Assembly: GCA_014843695.1 (NCBI GenBank)
Contig: CM026390.1
Coordinates: 16,862,759 to 16,926,758 of the forward strand
Length of the DNA: 64,000 nucleotides
Origin: Archivesica marissinica
Lineage: Eukaryota; Mollusca; Bivalvia; Venerida; Vesicomyidae
Reading direction: 5' to 3'
Under the pieces are notes generated by a model, which made no database searches, was not told where the DNA came from, and saw only the letters and a program-made list of their open reading frames with translations. Below are positions 16,601-22,600 of this stretch, piece after piece. Made by a program: the position numbers and the translations under genes. The first letter of the stretch is position 1. Each line of letters starts with the position of its first letter.

Positions 16601-19600
16601 CATATCACATCTCTCTTATGTACGACATATATCACATCTCTCTTATGTATGACATATATCACATCTCTCTTATATACAACACATATAACATCTATCTTAT
16701 GTACGACACATATAACATCTATCTTATGTACAGCACATATCTATTTATATATGACACATATCACATCTACCTTATATACGACACATATCACATTTATTTT
16801 ATGTTATATTTCGGGTTTTACGCCTGCATCAGCACCATTTTGGGCTATATCGCCGGCGGGCAGTTTACCTAACAACACCTTTCCTGGGCAGGCTCCAGCG
16901 GTTAACCAGTACTTGGGTGCACCAACCTCCGTAAGAAACTGCCAACTTTTTCATATAAATGAGACACGGTCTGAGCGGGGCTCGAACCCGTGACCATCAG
17001 TGATGATAGGTTACAGTGGTATACAAGTCAGCGACCATAACCACTCGACCACGGAGGCGGAGACATATCACATTAATCAGATATAATAGTAAAGCTAAAA
17101 CATAAGTAAATTACCTGTCTTTTCTGAAAGAACTGGTAACCATCCTCGACAACCTGAAAACAGTCGAGAATGCATAAAACTCTGCAAAACACATGATACT
17201 ATTTCATTGTGTAAACATATTATAGGTAAACACTACTTAAATTGTATATCACCAATTTTGACCTGTGACCTCCAAATGTACACTACTAAATACAAATATT
17301 TATTACCTTATATGATTTCGCATGATTTTGGTTACTATAACTGTTCTCAAATTTTCCGTCATTTCACTACAATACAAAACTGCACAACCACTATCATTTT
17401 CAAGTTGCTTCTGTCAAAACTAAGAACGACAGACAAAACAAATTCATTACAACATATTAGTTTATAATTAACTGTTTATGATCGTAGGAAAATAGCTGAA
17501 ATACAAATGTACATCCAACCATGGAGAAATACAAAACACAATCAATGAGAAAGAAAATGCTATCTTTCATTGTTTTGACACTGAGGAAACTCAAGAATAA
17601 AGAAATGTTTCTTTTAAAGCAGCACTATATCGTAATAAAGGATGTTTTTTGGTAAAATATAAATACTAATGTATGTGTGTTTACAAAAATCGAAATACTC
17701 GCTCAGAAACGATAAAAATTCAATAAATATGCACCATCCTATACACAAATTGTTTATCAACAAGCGAAATATAAACACGCACAGCGTGCATGCGTGAAAA
17801 AAAAGCGGATGTAGAAATGCACGTTGGAATGTCAACATATTTTGAACATGAAAGACTATCTATCTATCTACCTCTAATGTCGAACCCCTCACGGGGATGT
17901 AGACATGTCCCTAAAAGACTTAGATAACAGAGGGATGAATCAACATCTCACAAGTAATTCAATTAAAAAAGACAACGTGGGACAAATGGGGACGATGCAT
18001 TCCGAATGTAAACAAGTGCGGACGATGCGTTCCGATTGTAAACAAGTGCGTGACCGACCAACTCGGAAAGTCCTACTTTCGGCTTCGAGTTTGTTTTATC
18101 GCAAAAAAACATTGTTTACCAATTGAACATAAGCATACAAAGTATAATGTAAGAATGAGTAGCAACATTTCTACCCATATGTAAAATTTTAATTTTTCAA
18201 ATATCTTTTATTTCATACGATATAGGGTTGCTTTAAGCCATTTAATGAAGTTCTTATCTATTCACATGTTAGACTGCAAATCTGTATAAACCTAAAAGTG
18301 TTGTAAAATAATATATTTCACGAGACAGATAATAAAACAGACATGTTGCCTAATCATGGTTGTTATTATATATGTGTAAGATTATTTTGAAATCCAGCCA
18401 TGCTCAACAAAATACAAGAACACTCTTCACAACTACAAATAGATATTTTAGAAACTCAAAAATGTGAATCAAGTCCCTTGACCATGAAACATTTCAACAG
18501 AGTTCTTGCAAATGAGATGTCGTCTAGTCATGTTGCTAATTTGCGCTAACTTATTTCGAAATCCAACCATGCACAACAAAGTTATGGGAAGGACAAGAAC
18601 ATGCGGACGGACGGACAGACAGACTGCTTACTATCACAAGCCCGCTTTTTTAAAAGCATGACCCTAATGCTTTAGGTGAGGCCCTTCTAGATTACCTGGT
18701 ATGTCCTGGAACCTATCTCTCTAGATTACCTGGTGTGTCCTGGAACCTATCTCTCTAGATTACCTGGTGTGTCCTGGAACCTATCTCTCTAGATTACCTG
18801 ATGTGTCCTGGAACCTATCTCTCTAGATTACCTGGTATGTCCTGGAACCTATCTCTCTAGATTACCTGGTGTGTCCTGGAACCTATCTCTCTAGATTACC
18901 TGATGTGTCCTGGAACCTATCTCTCTAGATTACCTGGTGTGTCCTGGAACCTATCTCTCTAGATTACCTGGTGTGTCCTGGAACCTATCTCTCTAGATTA
19001 CCTGGTGTGTCCTGGAACCTATCTCTCTAGATTACCTGGTGTGTCCTGGAACCTATCTCTCTAGATTACCTGGTGTGTCCTGGAACCTATCTCTCTAGAT
19101 TACCTGGTGTGTCCTGGAACCTATCTCTCTAGATTACCTGGTGTGCCCTGGAACCTATCTCTCTAGATTACCTGGTGTGTCCTGGAACCTATCTCTCTAG
19201 ATTACCTGATGTGTCCTGGAACCTATCTCTCTAGATTACCTGGTGTGTCCTGGAACCTATCTCTCTAGATTACCTGGTGTGTCCTGGAACCTATCTCTCT
19301 AGATTACTGGTGTGCCCTGGAACCTATCTCTCTAGATTACCTGGTGTGCCCTGGAACCTATCTCTCTAGATTACCTGGTGTGTCCTGGAACCTATCTCTC
19401 TAGATTACCTGGTGTGTCCTGGAACCTATCTCTCTAGATTACCTGGTGTGCCCTGGAACCTATCTCTCTAGATTACCTGGTGTCCTGGAACCTATCTCTC
19501 TAGATTACCTGGTGTCCTGGAACCATTCAAGGATATACTGTATGAATGAGTTGATATATCTCTCTAGATTACCTGGTGTGCCCTGGAACCTATCTCTCTA

Positions 19601-22600
19601 GATTACCTGATGTGTCCTGGAACCTATCTCTCTAGATTACCTGGTGTGCCCTCACAATGAGACTGAGATCATGGTTTTTGCAGAAATCTTTGACGATGTC
19701 TCCCCCAAAAGTAAACGACACACCTCGATCATTCTCTCCCCATCCAGTAATATCCTGAAAAGTCAAAGATTGTTAGCCATACAATAACATTACCAAGATA
19801 TGACTCTCGATGGAGGAACACACAACGCCAAACCTTGATTAACCCATTCAACACCAAGTAACTGACATGGACTGGTCCATGATATTTTTAGACCAATAAA
19901 TTAATAACAAAATTACATTTGGATCAGTTCATTTATCAAAATGGGTATTTTTTTTCTCTAAAAATAGTTATATTACTTGAAAAAAGTGCAGATCTTGATG
20001 AGACGGCTCGTTACGAGCCGGCTCATCTGGATCTACACTTTTTTGAAAGCCAATTTAGAGGTCTGTGGTGTTGAAAGGGTTAAAATATAACAAAAAGCAG
20101 TTTTCACACTGGAATACATTTTTGCCATACCCAGTAATTTATTTCCAGACATTTACAAGTACAACCTATAGATAGTTCACAAATAAAAAGAAAATTTTCT
20201 CTTGCGTGAAAATGTAATCACCGATAAGTGGAGCTTGTGAAACAGGTTTACACGTTTCAGGTTTACACATAACAGGTTTACACGTTTCAGGTTTACACAT
20301 TTCAGGTTTACACGTAACAGGTTTACACATTTCAGGTTTACACATTTCAGGTTTACACGTAACAGGTTTACATGTTTCAGGTTTACACGTAACAGGTTTA
20401 CACATTTCAGGTTTACACGTAACAGGTTTACATGTTTCAGGTTTACACGTAACAGGTTTACACGTTTCAGGTTTACACGTAACAGGTTTACACATTTCAG
20501 GTTTACATGTAACAGGTTTACACGTAACAGGTTTACACGTAACAGGTTTACACGTTTCAGGTTTACACGTAACAGGTTTACACGTTTCAGGTTTACACGT
20601 AACAGGTTTACACGTTTCAGGTTTACACATAACAGGTTTACATGTTTCACGAGGATTAGGATATTTGAAAAAGTTGTCATTCAGCTTTGTGAGAGAACGG
20701 GACTGTAAAGAACGATAAATTAAAAAATGTAAATTCATAAGGTAAAGGATTTCTTGTGTGAAAATGTGCTATTTGTTATAAAAATGTCAGTATATAAGCA
20801 TGTACGTTGTGTGACGGATCTGTAGTCCAGTGGTATCATGCTGGACTGGTAATCCAGGGATTGCAGGTTCGACCCGCCGTCCCACCCTAATAAAATTAAC
20901 AGTCTTTCAGATGGGACTTTAACCACCAAAGATCTCGTGTCGGTGCTGTTCACCGTGCACGTAAAAGAACAAGAGCTGGAATGGGTCTCTGTCTATTTCA
21001 TTGCACTATCCTCCAAAAATCTAAAGTGGCTATTCTCTTCAGGAGCGCTCATATGGGCAACCGGTAGCGATGATAAATAAACGTAAAACACACAGAACCA
21101 TGTATGGTCATGTCTTGCCTCTCAAATAACAATCTGAAATGTTAGTTTTTGTTGTTTTTTTTTTACGTTTATTTATCGTCGCTACCGGTTGCCCATATGA
21201 GCGACGCCTCCTGAAGAGATTAGTTATTTTAGATGTTGGAGGATAGTGCATGATACAGACAGAGACCCATTCCAGAATCTCCTCTGGTTCTTTTACGTGC
21301 ACGGTGTAAAGCACCGACACGAGACCTCGGTTTAACGTCCCATCTGAAAGACTGTTAATTTTATTAGGGTCAGACGTGGATCGAACCTGCGATCCCTGGA
21401 TTACCAGTCCAGCGTGTTATCACTGGACTACATATCCGTCTGTGAAATGTTAGTTGCATTTCGAGTGATTATTTATAGTCGTTTAAGGATGGATGGGTTG
21501 AACAAGGTGATGAAATAGCCATGGAATAGAAGCATACATTCCTTTAACCCATTTGATTCTGGATATCGTTATATAAATAAAGCTATACATCAGCATGTGA
21601 ATCTTTGTCCTATATGACGATGCGGTGATATAAATACGGAAACTATCGGTCACTGTTCGCTGATGGTTTGGACATCGAAGTGCACTTTTATTGAAAATAT
21701 AGATCACTGATTAATGCTACATATGTTTCAATAATTAGGGATTATAAGGCGTCACGTTATTGTAAGCCTATGAAACTGATGTTGGCGTCAAAATGAACAT
21801 ACTCACCTTTCTATTATAGTTACGTTTCTGAGGATATATGGTTCTGTCTTAACCCATTTGATACTGGAAACCGTTCAACCAGTATTTGCAAAGAACATAG
21901 AGCCAGGCTCTATGCTGTTTGCTATTCAGATGATCTTGCTAAGACACTTGGCTATGTAGCAAACAACATAGATCCTGATCAGCACGCAGTGTCACGCTGC
22001 AGCTGATCTGGATCTATGTTGTTTGCAAAAGCCTTTAAATGTATCCAGAATGAAATGGGTTAATATTATACAGCTATTGTGTTGATTTTGTCAGTGCAGA
22101 TATTAAATGTTGAAGTCGTGATAGCGCAGTGGGTGCGGTGCGCGTTCGCTTCAGGTGCGAAAGGTCCGGAGTTCGAGCCCCACTGGAGCCGTTACGATTG
22201 TGCCCTTAGGCAAGGCATTTATATTCCACATTGCCTCTTCTCTCTCCCTCGTGGCGATGGATTCCATCAGGAATGAGGTCTCGAGAGTGATTAATATAAG
22301 TTGAAATAACTTGTTTCGCAATCAAGCTAAAATAAATTTGTATAAATAAAAAAAATGTTAAATTATAGTTCCTGATGCCAATCAATAACCAAAGCATGTA
22401 TAGGTTTTCGGATTCGGTATTGGAGCTTAAAGTCGCACCAACAGTTAGTTTATACAAATTTATTTTAGCTCAACTGCGAAACAAGTTCTTACAACTTATA
22501 TTAATCACTCTCGAGACCTCATTCCTGATAGAATCCATACCGTGTGCGTTTTTACGTTTATTTATCGTCGCTACTGGTTCCCCATATGAGCGACAACTCC

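Follow-up and report, generated by a model that had tools for sequence, protein, structure and literature searches.

A minisatellite that runs into the end of a coding exon, and resembles that end, raises the question of whether the repeat was made from the exon-intron junction itself and, if so, of how the exon can be spliced with its donor repeated many times over in the following intron. We examined such a locus in the clam Archivesica marissinica, within the window (the whole 64,000-nucleotide stretch of contig CM026390.1 that was analyzed). A COX3 from a mitochondrial-like stretch of this assembly is identical over 283 aa to a cluster bearing the name of this vesicomyid bivalve (34 members; the next best match reaches 54%). 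Tandem repeats cover 49% of positions 1 to 64000, most of them minisatellites with units of 20 to 60 bp.

The minus strand of the window carries a PP1-like gene, of which five exons were recognized: 36952–37022 (71 nt, ALIEESILCMHGGLSPHLINLDQ), 23698–23775 (78 nt, IREMERPMVVPDQG...DPDE), 19641–19754 (114 nt, 38 codons, phase 0, ending ...VRAHQ), 17115–17153 (39 nt, VVEDGYQFFQKRQ), and 16226–16330 (105 nt, LVTLFGAPNYCGEF...FTILK). These join in frame with canonical splice sites, and the resulting 135-aa stretch aligns to PP1-alpha without gaps. The PP1 assignment made in an earlier, sequence-only reading of this DNA was borne out, as the joined residues matched PP1-alpha from the PDB with E 1.1e-62 versus 1.3e-35 for PP2A, the best match being PP1 rather than PP2A or another phosphatase, and also matched PF00149 (E 3.1e-14). 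The 5′ end of exon 36952–37022 is the least certain boundary, because an open frame encoding PP1-like residues (VYQAFECCITML) continues upstream of it (37023–37098) with no canonical short intron between. The N-terminal half of the PP1 catalytic subunit contains the motifs GDxHG, GDxVDRG, and GNHE; no exon with these motifs, nor any other for the first half of PP1, was seen in the rest of the window or in three further stretches (29.0 kb) beyond it, and the gene is therefore named PP1-like. The missing 5′ exons, along with the location of the nearest N-terminal-type match of the same contig on the opposite strand (C5:17067459), would be expected of an incomplete or decaying PP1 copy in which an array is free of splicing constraint. 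The intact reading frame, canonical splice sites, and ungapped alignment of the five exons argue against this reading, which we regard as quite unlikely.

The minisatellite occupies positions 18686–19652 (minus strand; period 34, 28.6 copies by TRF), and cutting it at the donor on that strand yields 28 donor-bearing units. The 15-mer CACCAGGTAATCTAG is exact in 21 of these, while four units begin CATCAG and two TACCAG, each a single substitution from the 15-mer, and unit 10 lacks a G. The statement in the sequence-only reading that every unit carries CACCAG|GTAATCTAG is accordingly exact for 21 of 28 units and needs qualification for the six substituted units and for unit 10. Re-reading of the units on the minus strand did recover the donor motif itself, CAG|GTAATC (9-mer CAGGTAATC), intact in 27 of 28; a donor-like site is present on the plus strand of the array as well. 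Unit 1 is the true end of exon 19641–19754, encoding DITGWGENDRGVSFTFGGDIVKDFCKNHDLSLIVRAHQ, and the exon runs directly into it, such that the authentic boundary forms one edge of the array. The overlap amounts to the last 12 nt of the exon, and the 34-bp unit holds both these 12 exonic nucleotides and the intron start of a single boundary, in agreement with the earlier proposal that the array was built from the junction. Three of the other exons (36952–37022, 23698–23775, and 17115–17153) have donors without arrays. In PP1 paralogues located on C18 and C717, the same RAHQ codons are followed by a donor that lacks any array within 150 nt; the 34-bp array is therefore specific to this PP1-like copy.

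Two other sites in the genome share sequence with the array. The 16-mer AGGTAATCTAGAGAGA occurs 26 times in the 34-bp array and otherwise, genome-wide, only at a chaperonin exon-intron junction (L081, C11:21808083–21808588) and its inverted duplicate, perhaps by coincidence. A 55-bp array on C13 (L029:3239–4627, 25 copies) contains the donor 15-mer 21 times exactly; it is an unrelated array, and no PP1 exon was recognized there.

Differences among the units bear on how the array grew. Spacing is 34 bp throughout, except for intervals of 64, 32, and 33 bp in the proximal part. The exon's own base (within GGGCAC) recurs in five of the 27 other units (3, 6, 9, 10, and 15), all within the exon-proximal 14 of the 27 (P = 0.025). 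The earlier remark that this diagnostic base appears only in nearby units holds provided that nearby is taken to mean the proximal half. The pattern fits an array whose exon-side half is older and whose distal half arose later and is more uniform, and growth of the array outward from the exon, also proposed earlier, is modestly, even weakly, supported by this distribution; gene conversion from the exon would leave much the same picture.

The same gene has a second array of this kind. The donor of exon 16226–16330 is repeated in a 23-bp array at 16086–16243 (minus strand, 6.9 copies of TTCACTATACTCAAG|GTAAATCC), which copies 18 exonic nucleotides, giving two donor-spanning arrays in one gene. 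On the upstream side of this exon, a 27-bp array (16347–16804) stops 16 nt before the acceptor, and the exon thus has arrays at both ends. Among 35 arrays of the window, donor content reached p < 0.05 for three on the minus strand (those at 16086, 18686, and 42975) and for three on the plus strand (15464, 16347, and 18686). Donor content by itself is weak evidence for the 18686–19652 array, and the argument rests on exon overlap. The array at 42975–49384 (6.4 kb, 23-bp unit, 282 copies) holds 170 exact copies of CAG|GTATCT when read on the minus strand; no exon was recognized at its 49384 end, and the array may represent a third case at a junction or match a donor only by chance.

Exon ends elsewhere in the genome were surveyed in genes picked before their repeats were known, with PP1 chosen because of this array and myosin and the chaperonins as multi-exon families. 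The PP1 query gave 35 matches, of which those with retrieved DNA sequence were used; for myosin, 30 matches with loci were used among 74 listed, and seven of the 30 loci were left out as duplicates (L044, L046, L047, L049, L052, L053, and L064); for the chaperonins, 33 of 57 rows were examined (20, 5, and 8, the last for the donor only). With one copy of a duplicated C19 exon also left out, the first set comprised 71 deduplicated exons (5 from the window, 17 PP1 paralogue, 6 related phosphatase, 23 myosin, and 20 chaperonin), and addition of 5 + 8 chaperonin exons brought the total to 84 exon 3′ ends. The denominators include terminal exons as well as a few that lack a good donor. Donor-carrying arrays span 8 of the 84 ends, with 2 to 55 exonic nucleotides copied. 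Apart from the two ends in the window (12 and 18 exonic nucleotides), 6 of 79 are spanned, four of the 79 with at least 10 exonic nucleotides copied. These six are a PP1 paralogue (45 bp, 48 copies, 2 exonic nucleotides), a myosin exon (35 bp, 7.1 copies, 16 exonic nucleotides), and four chaperonin exons: L090 (about 43 bp, more than 25 copies, 13 donors matched exactly within the stretch, and 15 exonic nucleotides copied exactly, or 35 by TRF), two with 76-bp units (at least four donors with 55 exonic nucleotides and at least two donors with 34), and one with 31-bp units (at least 12 donors, 2 exonic nucleotides). Arrays begin 2 to 7 nt into the intron at four more sampled exons, and arrays also span two PP1-paralogue acceptors. 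At L065 (C19:56136000–56145999), a PP1-paralogue exon occurs in two copies separated by 5.2 kb (offsets 2605 and 7815), and each copy is preceded by a 50-bp array in which its acceptor and the first bases of the exon are repeated.

The position of arrays relative to splice sites was evaluated in 51 exons with longer flanks, array starts between −45 and +10 of the donor being compared with random flank positions in 2000 draws; the sample is small and drawn from three gene families, and paralogues within it are not fully independent. An array start lay near the donor in 7 of 51 exons versus a random mean of 1.26 (seven or more in 2 of 2000 draws), and in 5 of 46 versus 0.98 when the exons of the window were excluded (3 of 2000 draws). 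Strict spanning of the donor was less clearly above chance (4 versus 0.97; 26 of 2000 draws), and acceptors gave 5 versus 1.55 (41 of 2000 draws). The enrichment suggests a bias in array birth toward donors; a bias in survival could contribute to array position or explain it without birth at the junction. That an intronic repeat overlaps the exon by chance was rejected, because the 34-bp unit adjoins the exon directly and reproduces its end, 12 exonic nucleotides included, and because array starts are enriched at donors. The possibility of an unrelated intronic minisatellite that expanded as far as the exon edge, resembling the exon end by coincidence, draws on the half or so of the window that is tandem array and on the several arrays elsewhere that stop 2 to 7 nt before reaching an exon. 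We consider it highly improbable given that the repeat includes the nucleotides coding the conserved RAHQ end, and that other exons show similar copying of up to 55 nt. A wider reading of the survey is that splice donors are a genome-wide birthplace of minisatellites in this clam, with roughly one exon end in 10 to 15 stuttered by a junction-tied (transcription- or splicing-linked) process, giving thousands of donor ladders and raw material for new introns or exons; we put this forward tentatively, as possible but somewhat doubtful.

To examine the predicted outcome of donor choice, each donor at exon 19641–19754 was joined and read through the next two exons. In the computed translations, only the exon-proximal one of the 27 intact donors keeps the PP1 frame, which supports its earlier designation as the real donor, while 26 of 26 distal donors would add Val-Ile-stop, the stop being the TAG of GTA-ATC-TAG at codon 41, just as the sequence-only reading had anticipated for any distal choice. 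For the 16086–16243 array, the first extra donor would cause a frameshift and later donors a stop. The predicted fate of transcripts from distal donors is nonsense-mediated decay (NMD). These features could describe a functional decoy ladder, in which splicing uses distal donors often enough to matter and the Val-Ile-stop lowers the PP1-like protein via NMD or cuts it after the RAHQ motif, consistent with an identical donor 9-mer in 27 of 28 units, a stop from every distal choice, and the similar consequences of the second array. However, identity among units is equally expected from recent expansion, the C18 and C717 paralogues lack the array, and amphioxus genes with comparable repeats are reported not to yield aberrant mRNAs (PMC3902484, PMC3087553). 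A functional ladder therefore appears unlikely. The roles suggested earlier for the 34-bp array (decoy splicing, a source of NMD-targeted transcripts, and a U1 snRNA sponge) found no support here and are judged mostly unlikely, the sponge being considered implausible on dosage.

In amphioxus, the name mirage was given to tandem repeats that cross an exon-intron boundary (PMC3087553, PMC3902484), and in genomic structure the clam arrays fit the same definition. Mirages are reported in two amphioxus globin genes (BflGb6 and BflGb9), at 5′ and 3′ boundaries and with splicing apparently undisturbed, and in Adh3, with length and somatic instability (PMC3087553); troponin C and PGBD5 were added later (PMC3902484), and Canestro et al. 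2002 is cited in these papers. As far as these accounts extend, amphioxus mirages and the clam array have in common minisatellite-like tandem duplication over an exon-intron boundary, splice signals in many units, and an authentic exon copy at the edge, and 5′ and 3′ boundaries are both affected in amphioxus and in the clam sample. In contrast to amphioxus, the clam case concerns a bivalve and a PP1-like gene, with 34-bp units, 28 copies, 27 intact donors, and two arrays in one gene, and such arrays recur at 6 of 79 other sampled exon ends; splicing is reported as normal in the amphioxus accounts, whereas in the clam silent splicing is a prediction.

The structure and position of the 34-bp array, its donors and stops, the second array in the gene, and the similar structure at other exons are direct observations, from which we infer a mechanism of birth, silent splicing, and NMD. 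In structure the array is a mirage. The most probable reading is that a tandem duplication over the exon-intron junction gave rise to it and that, as predicted, it stays mostly silent because splicing uses the exon-proximal donor. When the left break of such a duplication falls in the exon and the right break in the intron, one intact exon end and donor remain in front, and every further copy lies within the intron, where slippage or unequal exchange likely raised the copy number. As long as splicing takes the exon-proximal donor, the mRNA would be unchanged and the duplication likely invisible in it. Since only the first donor keeps the PP1 frame and the other 26 add Val-Ile-stop, selection would tolerate the array for as long as the first donor wins. 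Preference for the exon-proximal donor would plausibly follow from exon definition, by which a 114-nt exon would be favored over the 148 to 1059 nt exons defined by decoys; occasional decoy use would yield NMD-targeted noise.

Two related phenomena differ from the clam array. The Rogers model, as discussed in PMC3087553, has introns arise when AG|GT proto-splice sites are tandemly duplicated; it shares AG|GT duplication with the clam array, but in the clam an existing donor is repeated within an existing intron, with no new intron shown. A 27-bp minisatellite in intron 3 of an abalone TSSK1-like gene (PMC6905558) is length-variable and lies in a molluscan intron, like the clam array, but in the text available it is not described as spanning an exon boundary. 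Within the literature searched, as far as the sources were accessible, structures of this kind were recognized only in amphioxus and no mollusc case was found. The clam arrays broaden the range of mirages beyond cephalochordates to include a mollusc, and they are dense enough that genome-wide tests would be possible; they also bear on how introns lengthen and arise. With 27 identical donors at near-constant 34-nt steps, and other arrays at 23 to 76 nt, they would form a natural experiment on distance in 5′ splice-site choice; if the extra donors are mostly ignored, as predicted, the array would serve as a natural ruler for that choice. Both gene prediction and the mapping of splices from short reads would be misled by arrays of this type. 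Separately, a chromosome-sized contig (L034, C18) contains mitochondrial frames resembling COX1 and COX3, which represent either a nuclear insertion or a misassembly.
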